In this document: piece after piece, positions 10,095-26,360 of the stretch
Position numbering within the stretch: position 1 is the first letter of the stretch
Layout of the letters: every line of letters starts with the position of its first letter
DNA from: Clostridiales bacterium
GTDB taxonomy: Bacteria > Bacillota > Clostridia > Lachnospirales > Lachnospiraceae
Reading direction: 5' to 3'
Assembly: GCA_020859985.1 (NCBI GenBank)
Contig: JAJBVD010000062.1
Location: 31,644 to 95,643, forward strand
Length of the DNA stretch: 64,000 nucleotides
Program-made: the position numbers and the translations under genes
Notes under the pieces: model-generated
Told to the model about the DNA's origin: nothing
The model's database searches: none
Seen by the model: the letters and a program-made list of their open reading frames with translations, nothing else

Positions 10095-10150
10095 CGCAAA
10101 TCGCTCCTTTCCTTCCACACATTCAAAAAATTATAATTATTGTAGCACAA

Positions 10151-10197: not shown

Positions 10198-10239
10198 AAT
10201 CAAAAATAAAATTTAAAGTAAAGCTCTCTGATAAATTTC

Positions 10240-10878: not shown

Positions 10879-10965
10879 AATATACCTCCTTGATTCCAAT
10901 CATACCTGTCAGTTTTCTTCTCTTATTGCTTCTGATGATACACCCGTTTTTTCCGGATTCCGTTT

Positions 10966-11781
10966 TTACTTTTTCACCGGCCCGATCAGGCCCTCCCGAT
11001 AAGCTCCGATATACTCCATGCAGTAATCATCCAGTCCGAGAAGCGCCTCCGTTGAATATACCAGCCCCAGCATATCCCGGTTGGTCGGATCCATGATTGC
11101 GCTGTCAAGTCCCGCATTCATTGCCAGCACCAGAAATCCGTAGTTGATCAGCTTTCTCACCGGAAGGTTAAAGGAAATATTGCTGATTGCCGCCGTAATA
11201 TGTATGGACGGATACTGCTCTCTCACAGAGGAGATGACCTCCGTGTTCGTCTCAATACCGTTCTCAGACGTGCAGAGCATCTCGACCAGCGGATCAATAT
11301 GAATCCGGCTCGGAGCAATCCCGTACTCCTTTGCCTTTGCCATAATCTTATCAAACACCTTCAGGCGGTCCGCTGCATTCTTCGGGATGCCGGTATCATC
11401 GCTAAGCAACGCGATTACTTCCCAGCCTTTGTTTTCCGGCTGCGCCATGATCGGGAAGATGGTATCAATCTTTCTTCCCTCACCAGATACGGAATTAAAT
11501 ATGCCGGGACGTTTGCAGAATTTATACGCTTCCGCAAGCACAGCAGGGCTTGGGCTGTCCACTGAAATCGGAAGGTCTGTCACCTCCTGAATACAGCCGA
11601 TCATCCACTGCAGGGTTTCAACCTCCTGCTCCTCCGGAACGGACGCACAACAGTCAATATAAGTCGCCCCCGCCTCAGTCTGCGCGATCGCCCTTGCCTT
11701 GATGAACTCCGCGTCACGCTTCGCGATCGCCTCCGCCACTGACGGGATTGAGCCGTTTATTTTCTCACCAATAATAATCAA
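10966..11781 (-). CDS. Methyltetrahydrofolate:corrinoid methyltransferase (pterin-binding domain)
   Basis: A 271-residue cytosolic TIM-barrel enzyme of the MeTr/dihydropteroate-synthase superfamily, expected to move methyl groups between the corrinoid protein and tetrahydrofolate. Family signatures are IIIGEKINGS at the N-terminus, the acidic loop ATYIDCCAS, SVDSPSP, HIDPLVE near residue 163 and the pterin-contact region AAISNISFNLP near residue 198. The start is TTG with GGAGG eight bases upstream. Gene order after the UroD-like enzyme and before the corrinoid protein supports a complete demethylation route to methyl-tetrahydrofolate. Confidence 0.93.
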   Translation of the reverse strand: MIIIGEKINGSIPSVAEAIAKRDAEFIKARAIAQTEAGATYIDCCASVPEEQEVETLQWMIGCIQEVTDLPISVDSPSPAVLAEAYKFCKRPGIFNSVSGEGRKIDTIFPIMAQPENKGWEVIALLSDDTGIPKNAADRLKVFDKIMAKAKEYGIAPSRIHIDPLVEMLCTSENGIETNTEVISSVREQYPSIHITAAISNISFNLPVRKLINYGFLVLAMNAGLDSAIMDPTNRDMLGLVYSTEALLGLDDYCMEYIGAYREGLIGPVKK

Positions 11782-11873
11782 TTTGCCATCCTCCAGTCTT
11801 TCTATCCTGATTGTTGGTCCTGTACCTCACAGCGGAATAAATCCTTCTGCTTTGCATCCATCCGCCGCCAGCA

Positions 11874-12908
11874 TCAGAACATAATCTGCCACGGAAGTCT
11901 CGTGGACTCTGCCGCGTTAATGCCGTATTTCTCCGCATTCAGCTTATCGATTGCATTGCACAGAGACATATAAACGCCCGGATAAACCGATCCCGGTCCG
12001 CCCTGTGCGATACACGGGATAAAATATTTATTGCCGCATTCCTCGCATACGCGCCGCACAACTGCCTCACAGTTCTCATCTGTCCAGCCCTCAAAATCCA
12101 CTGCACGGTTCTCAATGCCGCCCATAAAGCTGATCTTTCCGCCATATTTCTTAATCAGCTCCGGCAGATTGTTAGTTTCCATGCAGCCCTGCCATACATC
12201 AATCCCCATCTCGATCATGTCCGGCACCAGCGTCGCGGCATAGGAATCGGAATGATGGATCACGAGCTCCACACCATGGCTGTGATAATATCCGTAAATC
12301 TGCTTATACGGCTCTACAAAGAAATCCTCAAACATCGCCGGGCTCATGAAAGTGCTGTCCAGACCGCCCCAGTCGTCATGATGGAACAGCGCATCCGGAT
12401 GCAGGTTAGAGCAGATGCCTTCCGCCAGCTCCAGCTCCCACTCGGTCAGGTATTTGATCAGGTCATGCATCTCATCCTCATTCGTAATATAATACATCAG
12501 TGCGTTAGATATCTCGCAGAGATGATGGGTCTGCTCAAAAAGCCCCGGCGCGACAAACGCCGCCTTAAAGGACTGCTCGCCATCCACCGCATCATACGTG
12601 GCCTTCACCATATCCCACTGTTCCTGTGAAAATTTGAGAGACGGCGCATGAACATATTCTTTCCAGTCCTCGATATCCTTTACCACGATCTTATCCGGCG
12701 TATGTACCGGGAACGCTCCGGGCACACCCTTCGGAAACGTATTCGTCACTCCCCACGCGTTCACGACATTCTCCTGCCCCGGCTCAAGCAGCGGACTCGA
12801 AAACATAAAGGGATGCATCAGAAGCTGTACCGCCTCGTACTGGTTCACAATCCGGTCCGGATTCCCCCCGCGGATCACTTCAAGCATATTCTGTTTCGGT
12901 GTCAACAT
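11874..12908 (-). CDS. Uroporphyrinogen decarboxylase-family corrinoid methyltransferase
   Basis: First gene of the operon. The 344-residue TIM-barrel protein belongs to the UroD/MtaA superfamily. In this setting such proteins transfer a methyl from an organic substrate to a corrinoid protein, rather than decarboxylating porphyrins. Visible motifs are HHDDWGG near residue 198, VIHHSDSY near 236 and IPCIAQGGPGS near 304. The usual MtaA zinc motif HxC is replaced by HHSD, so metal ligands may differ. GGAGG lies nine bases before the ATG. The substrate cannot be read from sequence; methoxylated aromatics and quaternary amines are possibilities known for related systems. Confidence 0.88.
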   Translation of the reverse strand: MLTPKQNMLEVIRGGNPDRIVNQYEAVQLLMHPFMFSSPLLEPGQENVVNAWGVTNTFPKGVPGAFPVHTPDKIVVKDIEDWKEYVHAPSLKFSQEQWDMVKATYDAVDGEQSFKAAFVAPGLFEQTHHLCEISNALMYYITNEDEMHDLIKYLTEWELELAEGICSNLHPDALFHHDDWGGLDSTFMSPAMFEDFFVEPYKQIYGYYHSHGVELVIHHSDSYAATLVPDMIEMGIDVWQGCMETNNLPELIKKYGGKISFMGGIENRAVDFEGWTDENCEAVVRRVCEECGNKYFIPCIAQGGPGSVYPGVYMSLCNAIDKLNAEKYGINAAESTRLPWQIMF

Positions 12909-13005: not shown

Positions 13006-13173
13006 AACAACTTCCGCACAGTCATTTTCAACAAAGTTATTGTATCATTTGCACAGTTTCTTCGACAGTGTCAATTCTTAGGAAAATCTCATCCCTTTTC
13101 GTACAAATTGTAGTAACAGCAGCGTTTCCTGACTGATACAATTCGTCTAAAAAATTGCGTTTTCGCTAAAAAG

Positions 13174-13342
13174 TCATTTCCTGCATTCCAATGAAAACAA
13201 AAGCATAAAAAAAGCCCTTGTACGCGAGCGTCCAGGGCTTTCCATATGCTTTCCATATGCTTTCCATATGCTTTTGTATTCGCAGTAAATCCTTATCTCT
13301 TTGAAAACTGCGGAGCGCGACGAGCCGCTTTGAGGCCGTATT
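13174..13342 (-). repeat. Direct repeat A: duplicated rpsI 3' end plus terminator
   Basis: This stretch matches 24854-25002 closely. It contains the last codons of rpsI (reading [15 protein letters not shown], then stop), the following GTATTCGCAGTAA motif and the long terminator hairpin. It differs by a threefold 11-bp repeat CTTTCCATATG near 13237-13270. The rpsI reading frame is cut at 13342. It is read here as the distal attachment repeat of an island inserted at the rpsI 3' end. Confidence 0.88.
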
Positions 13343-13511
13343 CGGCCTTTTTTAGAGGAGTTTTTCCTTGATTTTAAAGGATTCTTGCGGAATTTGCTTC
13401 CGTTTTGACCACCTCATTAACAGTAAAAAATGAGGCATCAAACCTTTACATACGTTGTTCAAAATTCATTTTTGGGGATTTATCCCCGACACGGTAGTAT
13501 ACCTCATCTGC
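13343..13511. other. Non-coding left edge of the island
   Basis: AT-rich sequence starting where similarity to rpsI stops. It holds a small hairpin with arms CCTCATT and AATGAGG (about 13411-13434). I see no gene or integrase remnant here. Confidence 0.5.
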
Positions 13512-13856
13512 CTAGTTCGCATGAAGCTGATTGCTCTGTATTACATGCATGATAAGAACATGATTTGGCTTTCCTTCCACGTCAGTGCAATCCAAAATTT
13601 CTGTATCAACATTCACTGACGGAACACAATAATCAAACGGAGTGCGCAAGAGTTCATTTACGTTTGCTTCATAACCATCAATTCCAGTTATATCCCCCTT
13701 ATCCTCAATACCAATAGCAATATCACCACCATCAGCATTCGCAAATGCAACAATCGGAATCGCCAGTGCTTTTTCATCTATTCTGGCACTTTTCCTGTCA
13801 AACGTCTGCAATTCTGTTGTAAACCGTATCTTTTCAATATCTTTGATATGGTTCAT
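13512..13856 (-). pseudogene. AlbA_2 (Schlafen-type) domain protein, N-terminal fragment
   Basis: The 114-residue frame matches the N-terminal AlbA_2 domain of the putative DNA-binding/ATP-binding family. It shows ETQTFD-type and KSARIDEKALAIPIVAFAN sequence, GGDIAIGIEDKGDITGI, and ends within the conserved HVIQSNQLHAN, where intact proteins normally continue for several hundred residues. The stop therefore truncates it. It lies just inside the left repeat of the proposed island. A separate C-terminal remnant of the same family lies upstream at 14047-14360, so these are pieces of two copies rather than one interrupted gene. Confidence 0.75.
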
Positions 13857-14046
13857 ACAATCCCTTCCTGTCTGTAAAATCCTGCTTATAGTTTACTCAT
13901 TCCAACACAGGTAATCAACATCAATTTCATAAATTCACTGAAAAAACATCTGAAGAACTACGTTTACAATCAAGCAGGATACGTTTATTTACAATTCGCA
14001 TTCGCAGTAACGCGAAACAGATTCAGCATTCTCACCCTTTTATAAC

Positions 14047-14360
14047 TTAGATTCTGACATAAGCGGTCGCCGGTCCTGACCCGACCTTTGCAATATAACC
14101 ACTCTTAACCAGGTCGGTAAGAATATGCCCCCGGCGGCACTCTCCATATCAGGCAGCGAGATAGCAGCCGGACTGACGTGAAGCGCTCTTGCAAGGGACT
14201 CCTTATTTGTCCTCGACACCCCAGAGCTTACAGAAATGCATTCAGGCGGCTGTTCGCGCAGCTCATAGGAATCTGACCTCCCCGTGGGTCTCACCGGGCT
14301 GCCCCCATTGCGTATTCCTGGCATGAAAGAACCGGGGATGTGGCTGGACAGAAGTATCAT
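14047..14360 (-). pseudogene. C-terminal winged-helix remnant of an AlbA_2-type protein
   Basis: On the minus strand one frame reads ILTDLVKSGYIAKVGSGP and ends ATAYVRI at the stop at 14047. This is the usual C-terminal winged-helix ending of AlbA_2 proteins. A different frame just upstream reads SRTNKESLARALHVSPAAIS, which fits the preceding helix-turn-helix. A frameshift therefore separates them, and the rest of the gene is missing. Limits are approximate. Confidence 0.5.
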
Positions 14361-14796
14361 TGTCCCTGACAGGCAGCAATTTCTCTGTACTGCTCAGCTT
14401 CCTTCCCGCGTGATTGTCCTATTATAAATCATTGTTCTGATGAAAGCTACACGGCAGTGACCCGATATCTTCCCGATTTCTGACTAATTATCACCCGGAA
14501 ATCATCTGGGAAACTCCCGGGAGACTCCCGGTGAGTGCCTGAAAACGATCCAGTGAACGCCCGGAAATCACCCGGCAGCTGTTCGGAATAACATCAACTG
14601 GTTTTCGGATTTTCTCCAATCATCGAATCAAAAATGCGTATATACGCAAAAATATTTTACGTGCTGCCTGACTGGTACAAAAGTTAAATGTTGCCTTCAA
14701 AAGTCCTTTGAAAAAGTTTTCGTTTTTTCTAAAAAGTCACTTGAAAAAGTTTGCGTTTTCATTTAAAAGTCCCTTGAAAAAATTGACGCCTGTGCG
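14361..14796. other. Gene-free stretch with degenerate repeats
   Basis: The part near 14490-14575 has degenerate 15-base units such as CCGGGAAACTCC and CCGGAAATCACC, possibly the remains of a decayed intragenic repeat. From about 14697 to 14780, three roughly 34-base AT-rich units (each with AAAAGTC then CTTTGAAAAA or CTTGAAAAA) lead into the promoter of the DUF4143 ATPase gene. Confidence 0.55.
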
Positions 14797-14803
14797 TATA
14801 CTA
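14774..14803 (+). promoter_or_regulatory. Probable promoter of the first DUF4143 ATPase gene
   Basis: TTGAAA (14774-14779) and TATACT (14798-14803) have an 18-base spacer. The -35 box is part of the last AT-rich repeat unit. An alternative -35 TTGACG lies at 14783, but its spacing is too short. Confidence 0.5.
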
Positions 14804-14832
14804 TATGACAGATGACAGGGAGGTGGCTATCA

Positions 14833-16152
14833 ATGCTGAAAAGAAAAATGGAACAGACTCTTTTGGAATGGAAAAACACTGCGAATCGTAAGCCTCTGAT
14901 CGTGAAGGGCTGCAGACAATGCGGAAAAACTTTTTCCGTGCTGAATTTTGCCCATAAGAATTATAAGAATGTGGTCTACCTGAATTTCTTTGAAAATCCG
15001 GATTATGCTTCTGTATTTGCCGGATCTCTGGAGATTGATCATATCGTTATGATGCTTACTGCATTGTTGGGAAACTCTGCTGTGTTTGAAGCTGGAGAAA
15101 CCGTGCTGGTGCTGGATGAAATTCAGGATTGCCCGGAAGCGAGAACGTCCTTGAAATTTTTCCAAATCGACGGACGATATGATGTGATCGGAACAGGCTC
15201 TCTGCTGGGAGTTAAGGGGTACGGCAAAGAACCGAAGTCTATCCCGGTAGGATTTGAAACGATAGTAGATATGTATCCTTTGGATTTTGAAGAGTTTCTG
15301 TGGGCCAATGGCATTACTGATGGCGTCATAGATATGCTCAAAAAAAGTATGGACACGGAATCTCCCGTGCCGGAAGCGCTTCATAATCGTATGCGCCAGC
15401 TCCTGCTGCAGTATACGGTTGTTGGCGGTATGCCTGATGCCGTGCAAACCTTTGTCGATACCCGGCAGATGAATGAAGTATTGCAAATACAGCGGGATAT
15501 TGTACGCTCCTATGAAGATGATATGGTTAAATATGCCGAGAGGAAGGATAAATCCAGGATCAAAGAGTGTTTTCAATCAATTCCTAGGCAACTCGGCAAA
15601 GAAAATAAGAAGTTCCAATATTCTGTAGTAAAGAAGGGGTCTACCGCTGCTAAGTATGCCGGCAGTTTGCAGTGGATCGAGGATGCAGGTATTATTTCCC
15701 GGTGCTACAATCTCTCCATTACGGAATTGCCCCTGGATGGCAATGCACAAGAAGATTGCTTCAAAGTCTATATGCGTGACTGCGGTTTATTTGTCAGTAT
15801 GCTGGAGGATGGCACACAATACGACATCCTGCAGGGCAATCTCTATGGATACAAGGGGGCTATCTTTGAAAACCTGGTCGCAGATATCTTTGCCAAAATG
15901 GGCAGAAAGCTATATTATTTCCATAAGGACAGCGGTTTGGAGGTGGATTTTGTGATTCGCTATCATGGCGAATGTGTGCTTGTAGAAGTCAAGGCCAATA
16001 CCGGCAATGCCAAAAGCACAAAAACCATCCTGCGGCATCCTGAAAAATATCATGTACAGCAGGCCATTAAACTGGGAGATTACAATGTAGGTCGTAACGG
16101 ACAAATTCTGACCCTGCCACTATATATGGCTTTCCTGCTGAGAAGTCTTTGA
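14833..16152 (+). CDS. AAA ATPase with DUF4143 domain, copy 1
   Basis: The 439-residue product has an N-terminal P-loop ATPase (GCRQCGKTF near residue 26, Walker B-like VLVLDEIQDCPEA near 93). A central winged-helix part follows, and a C-terminal DUF4143 region contains a PD-(D/E)XK-like EVDFVIRYHGECVLVEVKA near residue 375. The family is common and multicopy in gut Firmicutes and Bacteroidetes, and its role is not established. The ATG at 14833 has GGGAGG eight bases upstream. It sits alone in the proposed island. A homologue lies at 35707-37086 and also has AT-rich repeats before it. Confidence 0.92.
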   Translation: MLKRKMEQTLLEWKNTANRKPLIVKGCRQCGKTFSVLNFAHKNYKNVVYLNFFENPDYASVFAGSLEIDHIVMMLTALLGNSAVFEAGETVLVLDEIQDCPEARTSLKFFQIDGRYDVIGTGSLLGVKGYGKEPKSIPVGFETIVDMYPLDFEEFLWANGITDGVIDMLKKSMDTESPVPEALHNRMRQLLLQYTVVGGMPDAVQTFVDTRQMNEVLQIQRDIVRSYEDDMVKYAERKDKSRIKECFQSIPRQLGKENKKFQYSVVKKGSTAAKYAGSLQWIEDAGIISRCYNLSITELPLDGNAQEDCFKVYMRDCGLFVSMLEDGTQYDILQGNLYGYKGAIFENLVADIFAKMGRKLYYFHKDSGLEVDFVIRYHGECVLVEVKANTGNAKSTKTILRHPEKYHVQQAIKLGDYNVGRNGQILTLPLYMAFLLRSL

Positions 16153-16183
16153 TTTAGCATAATCGTGGTTTATATGCCACAAA

Positions 16184-16497
16184 TCAAGAATTTTTTTTGA
16201 CTTTGTGGCACATAAACGCAATACTGAAGAAACGATGGGGCTGCTGGAACCGGCAGCGTCTACATTTCTGAATCATGGCAACCAATTCTTCTTTCTGTGT
16301 TGCCGATAAGATAGAATCGTTCTCTTCCAGGAGCCTGGAGGCCATGTCTAGGCGCTTCATCCCGATAACCGCTTTTATATCCAGTAAGCCAGAGAACTGG
16401 TCAGCTTCCTGCCGAGGGAAATATTATAGATAAAGTCATGCATCCTGACATATAATCCAAGATCATACATGAAAGAGATGCATCAACCCATTTTTCA
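16184..16497 (-). pseudogene. Decayed coding remnant, family not recognised
   Basis: Two minus-strand frames read like protein but are interrupted. One gives MYDLGLYVRMHDFIYNISLG and onward to a stop. The other gives IKAVIGMKRLDMASRLLEEN, then NDSILSATQKEELVAMIQKC, to a stop at 16184. The frame change in the middle and the lack of a start suggest a broken gene, perhaps once joined to the GAF fragment upstream. I do not recognise the family. Confidence 0.35.
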
Positions 16498-17046
16498 TCA
16501 GCCGGCATTCCCTGAATATCCCTGAGCAAGTTCTCCCTCTTCGGAAAAAGAACCTTTCTGGCAGTTCATCAAATTCATCTCGTTGATCTCTGCAACGGAT
16601 ACATAAGAAAGCACCTGCAGGAGAGAATTATGCTCCGGATGCTTTATATAATTCCGTGGATTGATGACCACCGCGAAGCCGGCGTTGCGCTTATTGTATA
16701 GGACAGCCATAATGGAATGAATCCCTATCTGTTCCATGCGCAGGGATTCCTTTGAGCCTTCCTTCAGAAGTCGTGATACATCCGTGTAAGGAATGGCCAG
16801 ATTATCCTTTGATACCATGCGAACCGCTGTCAGAATTTCAGGATACTCATTCAGATCCATCGGTGCGGTACCGCAGACAGGAAGGAAACCTTCTCTGTGA
16901 GTCTCAAACTCCGGTTTCGCAGTCATCAGATCCGGGTCAACACTGGTCACCAGAGCGCTGTCCGCATCGTAAAAATCCATTGTCGTTGCCAGAGTATCTG
17001 TAATGATTTCCTGAAACTTGTAGCCGCCGCGCAGTCTCGCCTCCAA
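16498..17046 (-). pseudogene. GAF-domain fragment of a signalling protein
   Basis: The 182-residue frame resembles N-terminal GAF regions of clostridial diguanylate-cyclase-type proteins: GYKFQEIITDTLATTMDFYD, a middle NLAIPYTDVSRLLKEGSKES, then FAVVINPRNYIKHPEH and a helix with AEINEMNLMN. No output domain follows. The frame stays open upstream into the 3' end of the phosphatase gene without an ATG, so the true start seems lost and only a TTG at 17046 remains. It is probably a truncated, inactive remnant within the island. Confidence 0.55.
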
Positions 17047-17081
17047 TGCCGTAACCGTGTGCTCGTCATCAACGCAGTATT

Positions 17082-17615
17082 TTACCAGGTATAGGTTTTT
17101 ACTTCGCAGTTCCCGATGCCGAAGGCAGCAAATTCCTCATTAGTCATATCATAAAAATAAGACTGCACCACACGGGAAATACCGTTATGCGCCACCAGCA
17201 GATAAGTTCTGTTCTCCGCTCGGATATCATCAATCAGGTTATATACCCGCTGACACAGCTGCATCATCGTCTCCCCGCCATCATAATGATCCAGAAAGTG
17301 CGTCTTCGCGATCTGAAATTCCTTGCCGTCTCTGGGCGTGGATTCATATCGGCCGAAATTCTGCTCCTTCAGACGCGGTTCCATCCGCATGGGAATACCG
17401 GTTTCTTCCGAAATATGACGGGCCGTTTCTGAAGCCCGTACCAATGGTGAATATAGTATCTCGTCAACGGGAAGTCTTTCTGCAGCAAGGCGTCTGCCAA
17501 GCTCAATGGCCTGTGTATGACCAAGCTCCGTCAGTGCGATGTCCGTGGCACCACAGATTTTATTCTCGACATTCCAGACTGTCTGTCCATGTCTGGTGAA
17601 ATAGAGTGCACCCAA
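17082..17615 (-). CDS. Histidine phosphatase family protein (phosphoglycerate mutase-like)
   Basis: The 177-residue cytosolic protein has the catalytic phosphohistidine motif FTRHGQTVWN near residue 8, the acid residue region LYSPLVRASETA near residue 58 and the second histidine in LLVAHNGISRVV near residue 142. Length fits the small-molecule phosphatase branch rather than true cofactor-dependent phosphoglycerate mutase. The start is TTG with GGAGG nine bases upstream. It is the last intact gene of a minus-strand run that begins with the nitroreductase. The substrate is unknown. Confidence 0.88.
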   Translation of the reverse strand: MGALYFTRHGQTVWNVENKICGATDIALTELGHTQAIELGRRLAAERLPVDEILYSPLVRASETARHISEETGIPMRMEPRLKEQNFGRYESTPRDGKEFQIAKTHFLDHYDGGETMMQLCQRVYNLIDDIRAENRTYLLVAHNGISRVVQSYFYDMTNEEFAAFGIGNCEVKTYTW

Positions 17616-17650
17616 TTATGTCTCCTCCTCATATAATCGCGGATCAATCA

Positions 17651-18241
17651 CTATAGCATTCCAAAGAGGCTTTGCTGCTCGTATTCCTGCGTCCGTTGTA
17701 ATGACACAGGTATTTTCTGCAAAAAAACCTGTGTCTGTTCACCGTCACAAATCCAGTCCTCTACATTCTCTTCCTCCAGGATCAGGGGCATCCGGTCATG
17801 TACCGGCAGTACAGACGGATTTGCCTGCGTGGTCAATATTACAAACCGAACCTCATCCTGTACCATATTAAAAAATCCGGCCATGTACAGCGTAGAACCA
17901 CTCTCACGCAGGAAAGTGACTTTATTCTTAGATGCATCCCTTTCGTAAAAATGCCGCGCCGGTATCACACAACGCCGGTGAAGAACGCTCTCACTGAAAG
18001 TTTTCTTCTGCAGAGCAGTTTCAGCCCGCGCATTTATGAATAAGCCTTTTCCACTGTATTGCAGAAAGCCCCATTTCATTTCATCAAGCTGCAGCCTTGC
18101 GTTTCTTTTCATTATAACCGGAGCTGTTTCACCCGGATGTACATCCCCTGCAGTCCATTTCAATCCGAAGCTTTTTCTGTCCGCAAGCAGGCCGGAGACT
18201 TCATCCAGAGTGTCATCATCAATATAATATCTGCTGCACAT
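17651..18241 (-). CDS. SOS response-associated peptidase family protein (HMCES/YedK-like)
   Basis: Family members crosslink to abasic sites in single-stranded DNA through Cys2 and shield them. The start at 18241 is chosen so that the mature protein begins MCSRYY, placing the catalytic cysteine at position 2, with AGGAGG upstream. Other family residues are visible: FINARAET near residue 73, the glutamate in CVIPARHFYE near residue 98 and the histidine in VHDRMPLIL near residue 157. Length of about 196 residues is slightly short but complete. It lies in the proposed island among other accessory genes. Confidence 0.9.
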   Translation of the reverse strand: MCSRYYIDDDTLDEVSGLLADRKSFGLKWTAGDVHPGETAPVIMKRNARLQLDEMKWGFLQYSGKGLFINARAETALQKKTFSESVLHRRCVIPARHFYERDASKNKVTFLRESGSTLYMAGFFNMVQDEVRFVILTTQANPSVLPVHDRMPLILEEENVEDWICDGEQTQVFLQKIPVSLQRTQEYEQQSLFGML

Positions 18242-18265
18242 ATGCACACACCTCCTGCATGAATT

Positions 18266-18649
18266 CTATAAAATTGCCCGCACAATCAGCCGGATAATCA
18301 ATAACCAGATCAGAATGACAGGAAGAGCGTAGTACCATTTCTTCGGTCTGCCGTCTGCCCATATACCTTCGGATTCTTTCCGGTAGCGCTCCAAGACATC
18401 ATGGGGAATGCACTTTACTGTAAGTGCAACCAGTGCTGGCAGGAGGATGATGTCGTCCAGATAGCCCAGTACAGGGATAAAATCGGGGATCAGATCGACC
18501 GGAGAAAGTGCATATGCCACGGTAAGACCAGCAAACAGCTTGGCGAGCACAGGAGTATTTTCATCCTTCAGTGCCAGGGAAACTGCGGGGACATCCGATT
18601 TTAGCCTTCTCGCCCGTTCTTTCCATTTGCTTGTAGACCTTTGTTCCAT
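18266..18649 (-). CDS. DUF1232 (YkvA-like) membrane protein
   Basis: The product of about 127 residues has the DUF1232 signature ALSPVDLIPDFIPVLGYLDD near residue 48. A hydrophobic segment follows it, and a strongly hydrophobic C-terminal helix (LPVILIWLLIIRLIVRAI) suggests a membrane tail. The ATG at 18649 is preferred because GGGGAG lies nine bases upstream; the ATG at 18658 overlaps that site. The function of the family is unknown. It is next to the HMCES-like gene in the same direction with only 24 bases between them. Confidence 0.85.
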   Translation of the reverse strand: MEQRSTSKWKERARRLKSDVPAVSLALKDENTPVLAKLFAGLTVAYALSPVDLIPDFIPVLGYLDDIILLPALVALTVKCIPHDVLERYRKESEGIWADGRPKKWYYALPVILIWLLIIRLIVRAIL

Positions 18650-18664
18650 GATGACCATCTCCCC

Positions 18665-18847
18665 TCAAAACATGTTTCTGGTCTCTTCGTACATCCAGAC
18701 CGCTATTTTGTCCTTTTGTTTTTGCTTCAGCTGGGAATACTTTTTGTTCGTCTGAAGTAGCTTCCCGTCTACCATTTCGTGATTTTTCATTTGCGTCACC
18801 ATTTGTATTTGATATTCGCGGCCATCCAAAATCAGGTCATCTGACAA
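18665..18847 (-). CDS. Small charged protein, unrecognised
   Basis: A 60-residue frame (MSDDLILDGREYQIQMVTQM at the start) rich in Lys, Gln and Asp. Its start overlaps the end of the nitroreductase gene by 11 bases, which fits translational coupling. I do not recognise a family. The even spread of charged residues and its fit in the gap support real coding, but it could be a chance frame. Confidence 0.45.
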   Translation of the reverse strand: MSDDLILDGREYQIQMVTQMKNHEMVDGKLLQTNKKYSQLKQKQKDKIAVWMYEETRNMF

Positions 18848-19418
18848 AATCCACCTGCATTCCGGTTCTTGGTTTTACAGGCTGTTTTTCATCATAATTT
18901 CCCAGTGCCAGCGCGCCGCATATCGTTTCCTCGGCCTTGATTCCCAACGGCTCCATAAATTCACGAATGGATGGATTTTCATCCAGCCAGTGCAGCTGAT
19001 TGATCCAGCAGGAGCCGACGCCCAGGCTTTCTGCTTCCAGCATCATATTCTGCAGTGCGCAGGCTGAGTCCGCGACCGCATTCGGATATCCTTTCCGGTT
19101 TGCAACCACGACCAGAATCGGTGCATGGTAATCAAACGCATAATTCCCGCGCCTGGACAGTTTAATGGAATTCTGGATGCTGGCGTACTGATCATCGGAA
19201 AGCTCCATCTGTAAAAAAGCTTCCTGAACCAGTCCCCGCAGGTTCTCCCTGATTTCCTCGTTCGTAATCACAACAAAATGCACCGTCTGGCAGTTGCCTC
19301 CGGTCGGAGCATAACGCCCGGCCTCCAGAATATCAGTCAGTTGTTCCTCCGTGACCGGTTTGTCATTATATTTCCGTGTGGAACGGCGTTCCATAATCGT
19401 CTGCAGTATCTCGTTCAT
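18837..19418 (-). CDS. Nitroreductase family protein
   Basis: A 193-residue FMN-dependent oxidoreductase. Family features are the N-terminal RRSTRKYNDKPVTEEQL near residue 11, the FMN-contact region GRYAPTGGNCQTVHFVV near residue 35 and the C-terminal GLGSCWINQLHW-like stretch near residue 128. The physiological substrate (quinone, nitro compound or flavin) cannot be told. GGAGG lies before the ATG. It probably heads a small operon with the following 60-residue gene, DUF1232, HMCES-like and phosphatase genes. Confidence 0.92.
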   Translation of the reverse strand: MNEILQTIMERRSTRKYNDKPVTEEQLTDILEAGRYAPTGGNCQTVHFVVITNEEIRENLRGLVQEAFLQMELSDDQYASIQNSIKLSRRGNYAFDYHAPILVVVANRKGYPNAVADSACALQNMMLEAESLGVGSCWINQLHWLDENPSIREFMEPLGIKAEETICGALALGNYDEKQPVKPRTGMQVDFVR

Positions 19419-19453
19419 TCTGATTTTCCTCCAGTCAAATTCTGAAAAGATGG

Positions 19454-19795
19454 TTAATTATCCATAAAAGCCTCGTATTCCTCTATTCGGTCGATCCAGT
19501 TCAGGTCATCCTTCTTCTTTTTCTCTTTCTTTTTCGGAGTGCCAGTAACTTCCAGTATTTTCTCTTCGCTGAACGGAAATGACTTTACTGTTATTTTCAG
19601 CCAGGGCTTCCCGTCCTTGCCCTGATCCAGTCCCTGAGAAATCGAAACGTTATTATATTGACCTAAAAGCAGGACAGCAATCCGTTCGATATCATTTGCA
19701 TCAACGGTATCCCGGCCAAATACATGTTTATGTACATACGGTGAGATTTCTTTCTGCACCTTGCTCATTGTAGTTTTTACTCTTCTGACAGTCAT
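19454..19795 (-). CDS. Hypothetical 113-residue protein
   Basis: I take the ATG at 19795 with GAGGGG six bases upstream; the longer open frame to 20278 is only an out-of-frame shadow of the membrane protein gene. The protein reads MTVRRVKTTMSKVQKEISPY and has a lysine-rich patch (PKKKEKKKKDD) near residue 90 before an acidic C-terminus. No known family is recognised. It is 38 bases downstream of the membrane protein gene on the same strand and may be cotranscribed with it. Confidence 0.65.
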   Translation of the reverse strand: MTVRRVKTTMSKVQKEISPYVHKHVFGRDTVDANDIERIAVLLLGQYNNVSISQGLDQGKDGKPWLKITVKSFPFSEEKILEVTGTPKKKEKKKKDDLNWIDRIEEYEAFMDN

Positions 19796-19833
19796 ATAAC
19801 GCCCCTCATTCCGAAGTGTTTTTTGGTAAGAAG

Positions 19834-20415
19834 TCAGTTGTGGGAGAGCACTGCCCCGGCCGTGACCACAGCCATCATGCCAGCAACCAGAAGCAACGGT
19901 ATCATGCCGTCTACATAGCCCTTTACCTTGTCCAGACCATAATAGAGCAGATAACAGATTATGCTGACAACAGCGAAGATCAATGTTATGACAAGAAGTA
20001 AGATCACTGTTGATTGCATAAACTGTCCCTGCACAAACAAAGCATTCAGTTCCAGAAACATCAAAGCAGTCCAGCCGACAATGAGAAACAGTTCCGTCGT
20101 CACCTGCCGCTTTAAAAAGACGCTGGTTCCTATCATCAAGATGATATAAACGACTATGCCGCCAATCAGCACCATATTTCTCGGGAACAACAGCGCACTG
20201 CTCTCCACAGCGCCGCTGCCCTGAACAATCTGAATCACCGCAGCCACGCCAAACAGCAGAGCCGGAATCAGAAGCCAACCACTGCGCAGACCCTTTACTG
20301 CGCCTTGCGGTTTAAAGGCGATCAGCCACCATGCCAGGTAAAAGACACAGCAGCCAATCATCAGCAGATTTCCCGTCAGCATCTGACGGGTCTGCGCATC
20401 AAAATCTGAAAACAT
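19834..20415 (-). CDS. Integral membrane protein, about six helices
   Basis: A 193-residue hydrophobic protein with transmembrane segments near residues 15-35, 45-62, 78-98, 105-125, 132-155 and 170-190. The first reads LLMIGCCVFYLAWWLIAF. No soluble domain or catalytic motif is seen. GGAGG precedes the ATG. The family is not recognised and function cannot be assigned. It forms a likely two-gene unit with the 113-residue protein downstream. Confidence 0.75.
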   Translation of the reverse strand: MFSDFDAQTRQMLTGNLLMIGCCVFYLAWWLIAFKPQGAVKGLRSGWLLIPALLFGVAAVIQIVQGSGAVESSALLFPRNMVLIGGIVVYIILMIGTSVFLKRQVTTELFLIVGWTALMFLELNALFVQGQFMQSTVILLLVITLIFAVVSIICYLLYYGLDKVKGYVDGMIPLLLVAGMMAVVTAGAVLSHN

Positions 20416-20577
20416 CAGGTCTCCTCCCCGAAAAAATCATGCATTTACGAACGCCTTTAGAATATCATAAAAATCTATCCTTATCAATGCCACAGTCATA
20501 CACCATCGTACAAAATTTAGAAACGCGACAAAGATCGCTAGTTTTCACCCTCGTTGTTGTAATTTTGACAAAATGAG

Positions 20578-20606
20578 TTGATAATGCAACATGACAGTGG
20601 TATAAT
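20578..20606 (+). promoter_or_regulatory. Promoter of the XRE regulator gene
   Basis: TTGATA (20578-20583) and a perfect TATAAT (20601-20606) are spaced by 17 bases, about 45 bases before the start codon. Confidence 0.75.
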
Positions 20607-20651
20607 TTGTGGCAAGTTCGATTACTTAAAATCGGCGTAAGGAGTGTCATC

Positions 20652-20894
20652 ATGAAAGTCAGTTACAAAAAATTATGGGTTATGTTAGCAGAGCGTGAAA
20701 TGAGCAAAGCAGAATTAAGAAAACAAGCTGGATTATCCTCTGCAACATTTACAAAACTACGTAAGAATCAGGAAGTTACATTGTCCGTTATCCTCAAGAT
20801 TGCAGATGTGTTAGACTGCAATGCTGGAGACATGATGGATTTTATCAAAGATGAGGCCACTCAAGAGTCTTCTTTTACTGACACAGAGGCCTGA
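20652..20894 (+). CDS. XRE/Cro-type helix-turn-helix regulator
   Basis: An 80-residue DNA-binding protein with the HTH core SKAELRKQAGLSSATFTKLR near residue 18 and the typical C-terminal VILKIADVLDCNAGDMMDF. Size and motif match small Cro-like regulators often found before restriction-modification or mobile-element genes. AAGGAG precedes the ATG. A second start (ATG at 20976 with GAGGTG upstream) follows 80 bases later but runs out after about 20 codons, so the partner gene it once controlled appears deleted. Confidence 0.9.
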   Translation: MKVSYKKLWVMLAEREMSKAELRKQAGLSSATFTKLRKNQEVTLSVILKIADVLDCNAGDMMDFIKDEATQESSFTDTEA

Positions 20895-20975
20895 GTCCTT
20901 TTTATGAAATACAAAAGACTCGATTATAGTAGGGTGATTAAATATACTCCCCCGCATTTTATGAGGTGACATACA

Positions 20976-20993
20976 ATGGGAAAACTTATTGGC
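20976..20993 (+). pseudogene. 5' stub of a gene lost by deletion
   Basis: A good ribosome binding site (GAGGTG) and ATG begin MGKLIGSG, but the sequence then enters the 3' end of the antisense SIMPL remnant and stops. Both genes seem cut at the same point near 20993, which marks a recombination scar. Confidence 0.45.
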
Positions 20994-21464
20994 TCAGGCT
21001 TCGCACAGGATTTCTGCTTTGCGCCGCGCGTTCAAAGCTGCTGACCGGAGCATTTCTTCATTCACTGCAGATGCGTCCTTTACTGTAAATCGGATGGGCA
21101 GATCCGGATTTGACAGACAACCGGCAATCGCAGAGAGTGCCTGTGATAATCTCCACATCTCAAAATCAAATTCCAGCTTCAGGTTGTGATCTACCACATA
21201 GCCGTTGAAGACTCGATTGTAATTTCCATTCCGGTCTTTAACATTCTGATAATCCGTATGGACATTGAAGTTTGCCGTTTTCAGATCGCTTTTCTCAAAC
21301 CCAATCGCGCAGAGCGTTTCTGTCAGATGCTGAATGTGTTGACCGGCCAAATCCATCGCCCGGTCATAATTATTGTCCCGCGTATGCAATGACATGGAAA
21401 TCACGACCTAATCCGGTCTTGCTGATGCTTTTCCAATTTCTTTGACTGTTATAACTCTTGCCAT
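20994..21464 (-). pseudogene. SIMPL-domain (DUF541) gene with nonsense codon and 3' truncation
   Basis: The frame begins at 21464 (MARVITVKEIGKASARPD) with GGAGG upstream. It meets an in-frame TAG at 21408-21410 and then continues as VVISMSLHTRDNNYDRAMDL through RFTVKDASAVNEEMLRSAAL to ARRKAEILCEA at 20994. Intact SIMPL proteins are longer and pass this point. Thus there are two lesions, a stop at codon 19 and loss of the last part. The rest of the frame is intact, which suggests recent decay. Confidence 0.8.
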
Positions 21465-22289
21465 TTATTTTTTCTCCTCCACATTGCCGCCTCTGCCCAG
21501 CGTCTCATCAAACCAGTCTAATACGTTCAGCATATCTCCTGGGATACGCGTTCTGCATTCTGCCATGAGCAGCGCCGGTATTCCGTAAAAAGCTTCCGCC
21601 ATGCTCCCGGCGATGGCAGTCAGGGTATCGCAGTCGCCGCCGAGGGAAACCGCTGTACGGGTCACATCTTCAAAATCATTTCCTTCCAGAAAAGCGGTGA
21701 TAGCCTCCGGTACTGTCTCCTGGCAGCTTTCCACATGATGATACTGAGGACGTATCTCGTCACAGGTTCTGCTCAGATCGTATCCGAATTCCTCTGCCAC
21801 ATATTTTCTGATCTGTTCCTTGCTGCTTCCCGTCCGTGCCAGGAAAATAACAGCAGCAACAGACTCCGCTCCTTTAATCCCCTCCGGATGGTTGTGCGTT
21901 ACATCCGCGGTCGCCCTGGCGACTTCTCTGGTCCGTTCCAGCGTATCACACAGCCATCCTGTAGCCGATACGCGCATCGCGGAACCATTCCCGTAGCTTC
22001 CATACGGCGCAGGATTTTTCTGCGTCAGCCAGACACGGAACCGGCCGCCATATCCGGCATGAGGATATTTTCGTCCCCATTTCCGCATGGATTCGCTCAC
22101 AAGCTTCCTGATTCGGTCAACAGGCGCATCTTTTCCTGCATTTAGCAGAGCTTCAGCCACTGCGATTGTCATCACGCTGTCATCTGTAAATTCTGCTTCT
22201 TTTCCGAACAGTTCAAATTCCTTTGTTTTATTTCCTCTGTCAAACTCATACGGGCTTCCGATGATATCTCCCAAAATCGCTCCATACAT
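21465..22289 (-). CDS. ADP-ribosylglycohydrolase family protein
   Basis: A 274-residue cytosolic hydrolase of the ARH/DraG family, which removes ADP-ribose from proteins or small molecules. Magnesium-binding motifs are present: GAILGDIIGSPYEF at the N-terminus, FTDDSVMTIAV near residue 34 and GGDCDTLTAIAGSMAEA near residue 222. The ATG at 22289 has GGGAGG upstream; the open frame beyond it passes through a strong hairpin region and is not coding. It is the neighbour of a macrodomain gene, so both may act on ADP-ribose adducts. Confidence 0.93.
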   Translation of the reverse strand: MYGAILGDIIGSPYEFDRGNKTKEFELFGKEAEFTDDSVMTIAVAEALLNAGKDAPVDRIRKLVSESMRKWGRKYPHAGYGGRFRVWLTQKNPAPYGSYGNGSAMRVSATGWLCDTLERTREVARATADVTHNHPEGIKGAESVAAVIFLARTGSSKEQIRKYVAEEFGYDLSRTCDEIRPQYHHVESCQETVPEAITAFLEGNDFEDVTRTAVSLGGDCDTLTAIAGSMAEAFYGIPALLMAECRTRIPGDMLNVLDWFDETLGRGGNVEEKK

Positions 22290-22323
22290 TTCGTTGTACC
22301 TCCCTGTCCCTTTTGATGCGCAG

Positions 22324-22404
22324 AGCTGCGTAAGGAAGTCTTTCCGGCTAAAGCCGGACGCAGCTCGCGCGAGCGAGCAGGAGCCGGCAAGCCGTCTCCT
22401 GCTC
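22324..22404. other. Two strong hairpins between the macrodomain and ADP-ribosylglycohydrolase genes
   Basis: Hairpin one has arms AGCTGCGT (22324-22331) and ACGCAGCT (22358-22365) with an inner CCGGCTAAAGCCGG. Hairpin two has perfect arms GAGCAGGAG (22375-22383) and CTCCTGCTC (22396-22404). Neither has a T-run, so mRNA processing or a small repeat element is as likely as termination. Confidence 0.6.
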
Positions 22405-22485
22405 GATATATTCAGTTTATCAGAAAGCAAAAAGGAAGCGGTCGTCCGAAAAGCGACAAATCCACTTTCTTCGTTACTTTCTGAA

Positions 22486-23610
22486 TTATTCTCCCAAAAT
22501 GGGCTGTCCATGCTCAAACAGTGCCAGATTGATATTGTAGATATCATACTCCTTTCGGCTGATAAAATATTCGATGATCAGATCAGACTTGCTGCTGGGA
22601 GAAAGCGCCAGTTCTGCGCGTTTCAACAGGTCAACCGTATCGTCGAGATTCAGTTTCAGGGCAATTGCAAGGGCAAGAGCCGTTTTCTTTTTCGGTTTGT
22701 AATTCTCATTGCACCTGATTTTGGAAAACAATTTTCGGTCCATGTTGGCGCGTTTATAAACATCCACATCAGTCAGTCCCCGTTCGTCAATCAGATGAAA
22801 CAGTCTCTGCTGAAAGTTTTCCCCGACATTTCCCAGAGCGTCATCCAAACTCATTTCCGGGGACATTGAGATTGGCGCGGATATTTTCGGAGAATAGAGC
22901 GGTTCGGATTCTGAGCAGGTAATGAACTCCATCATCTCCGGTGCAGATTGATCAGAGTCACTTAAAATCCTGCAGCTTTCTGCAAAGCGCAGGCGTCTGC
23001 TGCGTTCTGTTATTTCTGCAGCATCCGGTTCACCATCATAAGACTGCTCCGGATATAAGTATTCTTCCTTTCGCTGCCGCGCGACATACTTTTCATCAAT
23101 AAAATCATCTACATCCTGGAACAGCTTTCCGGACAGTTCAAATGAGTGCCGGTCGAAGACAACCAGGATCACCTGCATGTCATGCAAAAGCAGAAAACGG
23201 CTGATGACAGAAACGGCAATCTGCAGCGCCCGATCTTTCGGAAATCCATACACGCCCGTCGCGATCAGCGGAAAAGCGATGCTGTCACATTGAAGTTCCA
23301 CAGCTTTGGCAAGGGAATTTTCATAGCAGTCCGAGAGAATATCAAATTCTCCATGTTTTCCGTCTACCCAGGCCGGTCCGACGGTATGGATAATGTATTT
23401 TGCAGGAAGTGCAAAAGCGGAAGTTACCGCCACCTGACCGCGTTCGATCTGTCCGATTTTTTTCCGCTGTGCCAGCAGGAGATCCGCGCCGGCGGCTTTG
23501 TAAATGGCCGCGTCTGTCCCGGCCGCATAGGTTGGATGCGGATTGGCTGTATTTACAATAGCATCTGCTTTTACTTTTGTGATGTCATTTCGGATGATTT
23601 TAAATGGCAC
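22486..23610 (-). CDS. Macrodomain protein with C-terminal helical domain
   Basis: The 374-residue protein starts with a macrodomain (about residues 1-165: IIRNDITKVKADAIVNTANP, PTYAAGTDAAIYKAAG, ATGVYGFPKDRAL), which binds or hydrolyses ADP-ribose or O-acetyl-ADP-ribose. A low-complexity linker follows. The C-terminal 110 residues (RLFHLIDERGLTDVDVYKRA, then KTALALAIALKLNLDDTVDL) look like a helix-turn-helix-like domain seen in clostridial proteins. The start is GTG with GGGAGG upstream. It is next to the ADP-ribosylglycohydrolase, giving a candidate ADP-ribose-handling pair in the island. Confidence 0.9.
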   Translation of the reverse strand: MPFKIIRNDITKVKADAIVNTANPHPTYAAGTDAAIYKAAGADLLLAQRKKIGQIERGQVAVTSAFALPAKYIIHTVGPAWVDGKHGEFDILSDCYENSLAKAVELQCDSIAFPLIATGVYGFPKDRALQIAVSVISRFLLLHDMQVILVVFDRHSFELSGKLFQDVDDFIDEKYVARQRKEEYLYPEQSYDGEPDAAEITERSRRLRFAESCRILSDSDQSAPEMMEFITCSESEPLYSPKISAPISMSPEMSLDDALGNVGENFQQRLFHLIDERGLTDVDVYKRANMDRKLFSKIRCNENYKPKKKTALALAIALKLNLDDTVDLLKRAELALSPSSKSDLIIEYFISRKEYDIYNINLALFEHGQPILGE

Positions 23611-23656
23611 AGGTAATCACCTCCCGGGTTGCGTAAAAGTGTAAATTTCTTCAAGT

Positions 23657-24293
23657 TTAAAACAGGCTCATCTGTCTGTCAATCCAGCTTTTCTGTTTCG
23701 CTTCGTGAATCTGATCATCCGGATGCCCCTCTCCGATCAGGAACGGGGACTCCGGATTATGTGACTTTATATTCTGCCGAACTGCAGCCGCGTTCGCATT
23801 GGCATAACAATAACGGCACAGATGCCCGCAGGTATCGTATGCTCCTATATCATTTCCCAGATAGCAGGCACATTCACTGCAAGCAGATTTGCGTTTAGGT
23901 GCGTCCAGCCTGCGGAAAGATGCGCTCAACCTTTTTATAAATATCAATGAAGCTGATAACACAGGTCTTTGTATATCCGGACAGGTATGCCGCCATCTTT
24001 TCAAAATCGGAGATATGACGTTTCACAGGATAAACATCCGAAATCAGGATCGGGTCATACCTCCAGCCAACGGAATCAACGCCGACGATATCGGAGAGTT
24101 CCCGGAAACTCTCCATCACTCTTTCTTTTTCCGGTACGTTTGGCTCTATATCTTTTCCATATGGCGTAATGGTGACAAACCAGTACTGGCCGTAAGGCGC
24201 AAGCAGATCTATGTACGGAAACATCGGCACGGGATTTTTGGTACAGAAGCCGATCACCAATCGGCGTAAATATCTGATACTTTTTCCATACAA
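23657..24293 (-). pseudogene. DUF1848 gene, frameshifted and internally deleted
   Basis: Two minus-strand frames together match DUF1848. The first (24293-23895) has FCTKNPVPM, YGQYWFVTITPYGKDIEPNV and KTCVISFIDIYKKVERIF. The second (to 23657) has the C-terminal cysteine cluster CSECACYLGNDIGAYDTCGH, then LCRYCYANAN and ends SWIDRQMSLF. The N-terminus is missing, the frames are out of register near 23900-24000, and the middle of the family is absent. It is therefore not functional. It follows the macrodomain gene in the island. Confidence 0.8.
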
Positions 24294-24509
24294 TAAACAT
24301 TTTAACTTTTAATGAAGGAAAGAACGGATGGAATACAAGGCTGCTGTTTTCTCCTGTTTCAGCCAGGTGATCAAAAAAGCACAGTCCTTCTTTGACAAAG
24401 ACGGAGCAATTAAAAAACAGGTTGCATGTGCCGGTAATGTTGATTTTATCTGTATCCTCTCCATACCATCTTGGAAGATCGTTTTTGACAGTCTGTTCGG
24501 AAGCAATTA

Positions 24510-24625
24510 AGAATACAGCACGAAAAACAACCCAGGAAGAGCGGATACGGATCGTAGAGCATTGTATTGCAAACAATAATAATTATGGATTGACACGAAG
24601 CGAGTCCAGCGAAAACTGGAGATAA
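24510..24625 (+). pseudogene. Insertion-sequence transposase fragment (IS3-type OrfA-like)
   Basis: The plus frame reads KNTARKTTQEERIRIVEHCI, then ANNNNYGLT, which resembles the helix-turn-helix start of IS3-family OrfA transposases. It stops soon after, and no downstream transposase is visible. It is the only mobile-element gene trace I can identify inside the proposed island. Confidence 0.5.
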
Positions 24626-24639
24626 TGACACCATTGAAG

Positions 24640-24853
24640 TATTATCAAAAAATGATGTTAGCAGCATAAAAATGCCGCCCTATGACGGGCGGCAATAGCC
24701 GAAGAAACTTTGATATTTAAAATGTCTACTTGACGAGTAGCACACCAAAATAAAGGATTCCCGGGCTTTTAAGCCATTTCTTTTTCGGTCGATTAACTAC
24801 GATAAGAATTACTGCGAATGCAAGAAAACCTCGATTCCACTTCGTTCCATCTC
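24640..24853. other. Gene-free right part of the island
   Basis: It contains a hairpin with arms TGCCGCCC and GGGCGGCA (about 24670-24692). At 24801-24823 there is a copy, in opposite orientation, of the sequence that follows the rpsI stop (GATAAGAATTACTGCGAATG). I see no gene here. Confidence 0.6.
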
Positions 24854-25002
24854 GGTCGTTTCTTGCATTCCAATGAATACAAAAGCATAAAGAAAAGCCC
24901 ATGTACACAAGCGTCCAGGGCTTTCCATATGCTTTTGTATTCGCAGTAATCCTTATCTCTTCGAAAACTGCGGAGCGCGACGAGCCGCTTTGAGGCCGTA
25001 TT
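24854..25002 (-). repeat. Direct repeat B: rpsI 3' end and terminator
   Basis: The proximal copy of the repeat at 13174-13342, containing the real rpsI 3' end. Outer arms GAATACAAAAGCATA and TATGCTTTTGTATTC and inner AAAAGCCC and GGGCTTT build the rpsI terminator. It marks the junction between rpsI and the proposed island. Confidence 0.85.
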
Positions 25003-25345
25003 TCTTACGCTCTTTCATTCTCGGGTCACGTGTGAGGTAACCAGCGGACTTCAGAGTCGGACGATAGTCGTTGTCTGCCTGAAGCAGGGCTCTGGAGATA
25101 CCATGACGGATCGCGCCGGCCTGACCGGTGGTGCCGCCGCCATATACATTCACCTGTACATCGAACTTGCCGAGTGTCTCAGTCGCTACGAGCGGCTGAC
25201 GAACGATCACTTTCAGTGTCTCAAGCCCGAAGTAATCATCGATGTCTCTTTTATTAATCGTAATCTTGCCGGTACCCGGTATCAGATATACTCTGGCAAC
25301 TGATTTTTTTCTTCTTCCTGTTCCGTAGAATTTTTCCTTAGCCAA
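24953..25345 (-). CDS. rpsI: 30S ribosomal protein S9
   Basis: The 130-residue S9 reads [20 protein letters not shown] at the N-terminus, has [20 protein letters not shown] in the middle and ends with the usual basic tail [10 protein letters not shown] that reaches the P-site. The start is TTG with GGGAGG nine bases upstream. It is cotranscribed with rplM, 18 bases away. Its 3' end is duplicated 11.7 kb downstream, which points to use as an integration site, with the coding sequence kept intact by the repeat. Confidence 0.97.
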
Positions 25346-26164: not shown

Positions 26165-26277
26165 TCGTTTTTTTGTAAATATCTGCCGTTTTCTTATGTT
26201 CTTCTTATGTTTCTGTGTTTCCGGCATCCTGTCTGAGGCACTCTTTTTTATGTTCTCTTACTCACGGCTACACTCCC

Positions 26278-26360
26278 TGTTTTTCTGTTTTTCTGTTTTT
26301 CTGTTTTTCTGTTTTTCTTTTTTCCTGTTTTTCTGTTTTTCTGTTTTCCTGTTTTCCTGT
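26278..26360. repeat. Simple repeat, 8-bp unit CTGTTTTT
   Basis: About ten tandem units of CTGTTTTT with slight variants, between the aguB stop and the rplM promoter. It is non-coding on either strand and likely to vary in length by slippage. Confidence 0.9.

Follow-up and report, generated by a model that had tools for sequence, protein, structure and literature searches.

The DNA analysed here (the window) is a stretch of 64,000 nucleotides from a Clostridiales bacterium (GenBank assembly GCA_020859985.1, contig JAJBVD010000062.1, positions 31,644 to 95,643). We found that the interval 13173-25002 of the window is most probably the decayed remnant of an integrative island, conjugative or mobilisable, that entered at the 3′ end of rpsI, the gene for ribosomal protein S9. 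Judging from comparisons at the sequence level, we assign this reading a probability of about 0.86. In the following, G-numbers denote genomes of the genus, G000 being that of the window, and L- and C-numbers denote loci and contigs.

The interval is bounded by direct repeats of the rpsI end. The left copy (13173-13342, 170 bases) and the right copy (24855-25002, 148 bases) are identical in 140 of 171 aligned columns, so the close match reported in the first-pass annotation of this DNA was borne out. The differences comprise 24 gap columns and 7 mismatches, a single gap of 22 being due to extra units of the CATATGGAAAG type on the left side, and the core shows one mismatch in the first 53 columns counted from the rpsI side. 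As that annotation had also stated, a complete rpsI is present at the right copy only (24953-25345, minus strand). The left copy is a displaced rpsI tail that still reads 19 protein letters. The features at the two ends, together with an RNA discussed below, are as follows.

24953-25345, minus strand: complete rpsI (ribosomal protein S9), an open reading frame (ORF) of 130 amino acids, 99% identical to G008
24950-25002, minus strand: proximal attachment core with the last rpsI codons, one mismatch against 13290-13342 over 53 columns
24793-24952, minus strand: inverted-repeat terminator cassette GGATTACTGCGAAT...ATTCGCAGTAAT, 3′ of the rpsI stop; the cassette or a variant lies behind rpsI in G001, G008, G010, G053 and G054
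24747-24797, minus strand: truncated proximal-end terminator TTAATCGACCGAAAAAG... of an arm-carrying element type, 98% identical over 51 bases to a G048 sequence that runs into two arm-like repeats
14263-14363, minus strand: pemK RNA (Rfam RF02913, 66 bits), read as a leader relic of the recombination module
13341-13420, minus strand: distal element end, with an arm-like repeat at 13402-13420 and AATCAAGGAAA 30 bases from the core (profile score 37.1 versus -2.9)
13290-13342, minus strand: distal attachment core, the displaced rpsI tail, from the repeat alignment
13173-13289, minus strand: rpsI terminator cassette in a displaced copy whose left side is truncated, from the same alignment

The length of the repeat is explained by the terminator cassette that the two rpsI tails have in common, and the recombination between element ends that had been suggested for its length is not needed. 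The motif GYATTCGCAGTAA, which forms part of this cassette, has 4 exact occurrences in the window (both strands searched, one mismatch allowed) against an expected 0.19. A 501-base query around the right copy, searched against its own genome (3.8 Mb, 89 contigs, assembly 97.8% complete) at E ≤ 0.001, matched nothing beyond its own position, the left copy (E 1.6e-43) and, in inverted orientation, the other half of the hairpin that it contains. A genome-wide terminator repeat, named in the first-pass annotation as an observation that would speak against integration, is therefore ruled out, two direct copies only having been found in the genome. A tRNA as the target was likewise ruled out, the window scan having shown no tRNA. 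The long inverted repeat behind rpsI (GATAAGGATTACTGCGAAT...ATTCGCAGTAATTC, 24793-24955) matches its own genome solely at the two rpsI tails and has variants in several relatives; an array of the octamer CTGTTTTT lies at 26277-26356, upstream of rplM.

To place these ends in a family, public genome contigs were scanned with two integrases of rpsI elements, and the best 80 of 182 qualifying loci were analysed. An rpsI tail was found downstream of the integrase in 76 of the 80, at a distance of 112-128 bases in 74 loci, 959 in one and 2605 in one, and in 69 of these 76 the sequence CAAGG lies exactly 30 bases from TACGG. Among the four loci without a tail, L184 ends after 83 bases, and L164, L194 and L205 have no tail at the set threshold, two of them showing a degenerate core by eye. 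The records are titled as many genera, mostly gut Firmicutes, and include contigs of G050, G051 and G062 (L131, L130 and L189). Most loci have a second match to an integrase of the same group (73 matches), some 2.5-2.6 kb ahead of the end of the integrase. Of the 80 loci, 72 have an xis-like gene and 19 a PemK-like gene, in most cases at 3.3-3.5 kb ahead of that end; upstream sequence is shorter than 3 kb in 20 of the 80.

An element-end profile was then built without the window. The 76 tail-bearing loci gave 48 distinct 80-base stretches before the core, of which 23, differing at more than 12 positions, were used. Scored on both strands of the window (about 128,000 positions), the profile reached its best value of 37.1 bits at 13341-13420 on the minus strand, compared with -2.9 bits at the next-best position (mean -76, standard deviation 16). 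The same profile gave 42 for the end in G014, 41 for G054 and 30 for G053, and the 23 training ends ranged from 1.7 to 90. By this score, the conserved element-end sequence is present beside the distal core of the window. The arm motif CTGTTAATGAGGTGGTCAAA, searched in 47 genus genomes with up to 2 mismatches, has a single occurrence in each of six genomes, the reversed motif used as control having none. It lies beside the distal tail in the window's genome, G014, G053 and G054; in G008 it lies 1.8 kb behind rpsI, no tail being found there, and in G048 it stands directly behind rpsI and is followed by a second similar repeat. By eye, G050 has a comparable layout with its own arm sequence, two copies near rpsI and one at the far end.

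A search of the same 47 genomes with the S9 C-terminus gave matches in 34, and an incomplete rpsI end was found in eight genomes, the window's included, as seven short tails (G000, G014, G050, G051, G053, G054 and G062, of which G014 has no complete rpsI) and one longer inverted copy (G024). All seven short tails begin at the same base, with AATACGG or AGTACGG. In G050, a single contig carries rpsI and the tail, equally oriented and separated by 42 kb, and an intact tyrosine integrase of 398 amino acids ends about 110 bases before the tail; ORFs that look ParA/ParB-like and conjugation-like by eye are also found in this interval. In the other relatives having both rpsI and a tail, the two are on separate contigs, so that the relative orientation can be read in G050 only. 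In G062, two tandem integrases are followed by the tail and then by genes that are found behind rpsI in other genus members. These genes share 85.7% DNA identity over 4.4 kb with G044, starting about 0.8 kb behind its rpsI, and occur in more diverged form up to 5 kb behind rpsI in G015, G061, G011 and G019. Judged by this arrangement, G062 is an occupied site, and G044, G015, G061, G011 and G019 are sites without this element. As for the intact elements with an integrase at rpsI, which the first-pass annotation had advised looking for in related genomes, an integrase stands beside the rpsI tail in G050 (intact, in the 42 kb interval) and in G062 (in tandem).

Given the window-free profile, the common start base of the tails and the 76 of 80 integrase loci that end in an rpsI tail, the left copy is the distal attachment end of an element family, and the integration into the 3′ end of rpsI first proposed from the letters of the window is supported on the same grounds. 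Two further observations concern the survey itself. In G024 (L118:1-630), the partial rpsI end is inverted towards the complete rpsI about 135 bases off, at a contig end, and is maybe an assembly artefact. In 13 of the 47 assemblies the S9 C-terminus was unmatched, some of them being at least 95% complete (G017, G046 and G047); binning may lose rpsI contigs owing to repeated elements.

The recombination module of the island appears to have been lost. No integrase was found in the 13-25 kb interval by Pfam and NCBIfam scans of its ORFs, and the 15 Pfam integrase matches listed, of 16 in the genome, include none on the window's contig. A genome-wide search for an integrase of the same group gave at best 50 bits, compared with 814-826 bits for five full-length ones (G050, G051 and G062), in agreement with the first-pass statement that no integrase is visible. 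The same family scans named no relaxase or conjugation gene in the island, and the tblastn matches of the G050 ORFs in the window were limited to rpsI and a single regulator-like ORF. A serine recombinase, for which no family scan was made, is unlikely, since the identity of the cores is long and the integrases next to the tails of relatives are of the tyrosine type. At the proximal end, the match to the G048 terminator stops after 51 bases behind the cassette. The pemK RNA is the only copy found in its own genome, and it points towards the left repeat, as expected. It precedes pemK-xis-int-int in L160 and L107, and where pemK, xis and both integrases would be expected in the window, scraps of Fic, XRE and AlbA_2 genes are found instead. 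The AlbA_2 proteins of L160 and G053 gave no significant match to the window, so its AlbA_2 fragment shares only the Pfam family with them.

These data suggest the following course of events. Site-specific recombination by a tyrosine integrase would bring the island into the 3′ end of rpsI. The element would bring its own last S9 codons and terminator, so that rpsI stays complete on the right, and the original rpsI tail would be pushed to the far end as the present left copy, a step supported by comparison with relatives. The left end would still hold the family spacing of arm-like repeat, AATCAAGGAAA and core. Based on the module order of relatives (pemK RNA, pemK, xis, int1, int2, att site) and on orientation, the integrase module would have been lost with the leader RNA and scraps left behind; the proximal arms and any transfer genes would also have been lost, and accessory cargo would remain. 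Movement would be possible only with an integrase of the same family acting in trans, on cores that differ at one base, or by homologous recombination of the host.

Between the ends, the interval holds the following features, besides a left flank that is listed last.

24274-24525, minus strand: remnant weakly similar to the regulator-like ORF of the G050 element (tblastn 26% over 85 amino acids, 1.5e-7; LysR-type by eye)
23657-24004, minus strand: C-terminal fragment of a DUF1848 protein (Pfam PF08902, positions 229-262 of 262)
22486-23610, minus strand: macro-domain protein (Pfam PF01661), 90% identical in the G014 island
21465-22547, minus strand: ADP-ribosylglycohydrolase (Pfam PF03747), with a 92% identical segment in the G014 island
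20994-21404, minus strand: SIMPL (DUF541) fragment (Pfam PF04402, positions 18-147 of 205)
19834-20415, minus strand: shortened protein, 193 amino acids against 255 in G010 by ORF comparison
18837-19418, minus strand: nitroreductase (Pfam PF00881), 94% identical in the G014 island
18266-18658, minus strand: DUF1232 protein (Pfam PF06803)
17651-18247, minus strand: SRAP peptidase (Pfam PF02586), present in the G014 island and, in G008 and G010, likewise behind rpsI
17082-17615, minus strand: histidine phosphatase (Pfam PF00300), also in the G014 island
16498-17046, minus strand: uncharacterised protein without a Pfam match, 87% identical in the G014 island
14812-16152, plus strand: intact AAA/DUF4143 ATPase (Pfam PF13635 and PF13173), a candidate phage-defence gene (PADLOC PDC-S01, 1.7e-159)
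14028-14202, minus strand: scraps of Fic and XRE genes, with DNA identity of 91-92% to the G014 element and separate tblastn matches
13512-13856, minus strand: SLFN_AlbA_2 fragment (Pfam PF04326)
8085-12908, minus strand: left flank, a corrinoid methyltransferase operon (URO-D and pterin-binding Pfam domains; corrinoid protein and activator by eye)

The description of the interval as rich in broken and accessory genes therefore holds, with the SLFN_AlbA_2, SIMPL and DUF1848 fragments, the 193-amino-acid version and the Fic and XRE scraps. Over 13-25 kb, the G+C content of twelve 1-kb bins ranges from 0.38 to 0.50, and their mean of 0.46 is below that of both the left flank (5-13 kb, 0.49-0.57, mean 0.53) and the right flank (25-33 kb, 0.45-0.56, mean 0.51). 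No resistance gene was named in the Pfam and NCBIfam scans of the window, no resistance library being searched. A possible insertion-sequence remnant at 24520-24730 has CTCGTCAAGTAGACA in common with the proximal region of G053 (transposase by eye), and two Clostridiales-1 RNAs lie on the minus strand at 42763-42936 and 62347-62507.

The gene order of the window was found again in one relative. On contig C139 of G014, it spans about 31 kb, starting with the distal tail at 1845 and continuing with the 16498 gene, histidine phosphatase, SRAP, nitroreductase, the 19834 gene, SIMPL, ADP-ribosylglycohydrolase and, at about 32,520, the macro gene, with about 9 kb extra in each of two places. Since the fragments lie on the side of the window, loss in the window is favoured over a gain in G014, and what the window holds is probably part of a larger island that has been eroded; a composite origin of the region is possible. 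The earlier proposal of a defective island of the cis-mobilisable type stands with a correction: attachment sites without recombination or transfer genes are present, but owing to the damage at its proximal side, 13343-24854 is not a single intact element.

Several observations weigh against this reconstruction. The empty site, rpsI joined directly to the methyltransferase operon, was looked for in the genus genomes as the first-pass annotation had advised and was not found, so the left flank is only a presumed original neighbour of rpsI, and the empty-site argument rests on G062 versus G044 and the others. The left flank is homologous up to 13115-13123 in G008, G010, G014 and G020, where it does not adjoin rpsI on those contigs; G008 and G010 have both rpsI and the operon, on separate contigs, and no complete rpsI was found in G004, G014, G018, G020 or G021, where the operon gene has close homologues. 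A TetM-like gene that lies behind rpsI in other genus members is on another contig in the genome of the window. Behind rpsI, at other distances, G008 has SRAP and part of the histidine phosphatase, and G010 has SRAP and the 19834 gene, so part of the content may predate the element or be native to the subclade; related gene blocks in G054 and G051 are on contigs other than the rpsI contig. The proximal arm repeats present in G048 and G050 have no match in the window within 4 mismatches except 13402-13420. The link of the pemK RNA to the module is not strict: the RNA occurs in 3 of 12 integrase loci scanned (L107, L132 and L160), and of the genomes of the genus, 8 of 47 have it above the cut-off, with copies away from rpsI contigs, only the window copy and the G051 copy on C155 being known to lie by an rpsI tail among the 15 matches listed. 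Finally, we infer the family of the lost integrase from the element end and the leader RNA, no intact integrase having been found beside this arm variant. As a side observation, an ORF read as ClpB lies next to the island in G054 and, in G008, next to the methyltransferase operon, which hints at an original order; a search of the window with this ClpB-like ORF found nothing.

Other histories of the interval were also considered. It is possible, at somewhat less than even odds, that the interval accreted from the remains of at least two successive rpsI elements, the left copy and the truncated proximal end coming from different ones and being joined by deletions. The truncated, armless proximal end would suit this history, as would ParA-like ORFs that by eye resume beyond the distal tail in G050 and G014, and tandem accretions with decayed elements have been published for streptococcal rpsI (PMC5357655). 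Of 33 distinct rpsI contexts, 5 (G001, L056; G007, L103; G013, L055; G049, L092; G051, L108) also have relics of earlier rpsI tails, 3-210 bases downstream of the present stop, by a motif scan with up to 2 mismatches that was run without a control. However, beyond its two rpsI tails the window yielded no third one, and in G014 a single order within the same distal end comprises most of the window's genes. The stacked relics of the last rpsI codons and stop have the look of piled short terminator cassettes.

We consider it unlikely that, in this subclade, the 17-24 kb genes belong natively beside rpsI or came to lie there early, with only about 4 kb (13.3-17 kb) borne by the element whose end is the left copy. 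The genes shared behind rpsI with G008 and G010 would fit such an origin, but SRAP matches of at least 82% identity occur in just 8 of 47 genomes, the window's included and three of them partial, for which reason SRAP is taken as accessory, and the block of G014, the one relative with the same order, lies inside the same distal attachment end. Moreover, conservation of the 13-25 kb order in distant relatives, which the first-pass annotation had named as contrary evidence, was not seen, the genes downstream of rpsI differing in most of the 14 neighbourhoods listed. Chance or a segmental duplication of the rpsI 3′ region, independent of site-specific recombination, is very improbable: the repeat does reach past the core into the terminator cassette, but the tails of seven genomes begin at the same base and the element-end profile stands out solely at this junction.

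Integration of a decayed island at rpsI agrees with published systems. According to published work, rpsI is a target of integrative conjugative elements (ICEs) and integrative mobilisable elements (IMEs) in streptococci, where tandem and decayed elements are known (PMC4701971, PMC5357655, PMC5704250), examples being IMESag-rpsI and the rpsI-targeting integrase families Tyr_4, Tyr_5 and Tyr_7 (PMC5357655, PMC5704250, PMC4701971). Roseburia hominis has a putative rpsI-integrated ICE, ICE_RhoA2-183_rpsI, carrying IME_Rho_tet (PMC12904643), and the esp pathogenicity island of Enterococcus faecium lies at the 3′ end of rpsI with an imperfect 54-bp direct repeat, its transfer and site-specific insertion being reported (PMC2858755). 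The claim that rpsI is a known integration site in other Firmicutes is thus in print for streptococci and enterococci and, with a putative ICE, for Roseburia hominis.

Compared by their published descriptions, the streptococcal elements share with those described here the rpsI 3′ target, the tyrosine integrase, the flanking direct repeats and the tandem accretion with decayed elements, but the relatives here are titled Lachnospiraceae and the window copy has no integrase or relaxase. Unlike the putative Roseburia ICE, the window holds a remnant, with no resistance gene named in its general scans, and the E. faecium island, likened by description only, is large, transferable and of another genus. 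Tested for membership among rpsI-specific tyrosine-integrase ICEs and IMEs, the island has rpsI 3′ ends in direct orientation and the distal end sequence; the integrase, the relaxase and conjugation genes and the proximal arms were not found. Cis-mobilisable elements (CIMEs) consist of attachment ends without integrase or transfer genes. The window resembles them in having two attachment sites around DNA without recombination or transfer genes, and differs in that its proximal arms are lost. Compared at this level, the window is a previously undescribed decayed member of the published class of rpsI elements. The family-wide end signature and the pemK leader were not found in the available portions of the rpsI-element literature, and we make no claim that they are unpublished; none of the papers found on pemK RNA concerns integrative elements as far as titles and opening lines of abstracts tell.

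With the 80 integrase loci spread over many genera, one integrase family and one target gene seem to connect many gut bacteria, and this one window supports the rpsI 3′ end as a hotspot of elements in a genus with Lachnospiraceae-titled members. The end signature, AATCAAGGAAA 30 bases from AATACGG, can find decayed copies without an integrase that are missed by searches for integrase genes. PADLOC matches also lie just inside the distal tails of relatives, namely AbiLi/AbiLii in G054 (L113:3880-5705), SoFic in G014 (L115:2039-3079) and PDC-S05 in G062 (L111:3260-4033), and the corresponding slot of the window has PDC-S01 and the SLFN_AlbA_2 fragment. We tentatively speculate, and hold it for doubtful as yet, that rpsI has been rewritten repeatedly, every new element exchanging the last S9 codons and the terminator, with displaced tails as ordered scars (cassettes with a QFSKR-stop relic) and a distal slot that hosts changing phage-defence genes. 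If true, one could read the past turnover of defence islands from the 3′ region of rpsI, the enrichment in defence genes being a proposal.

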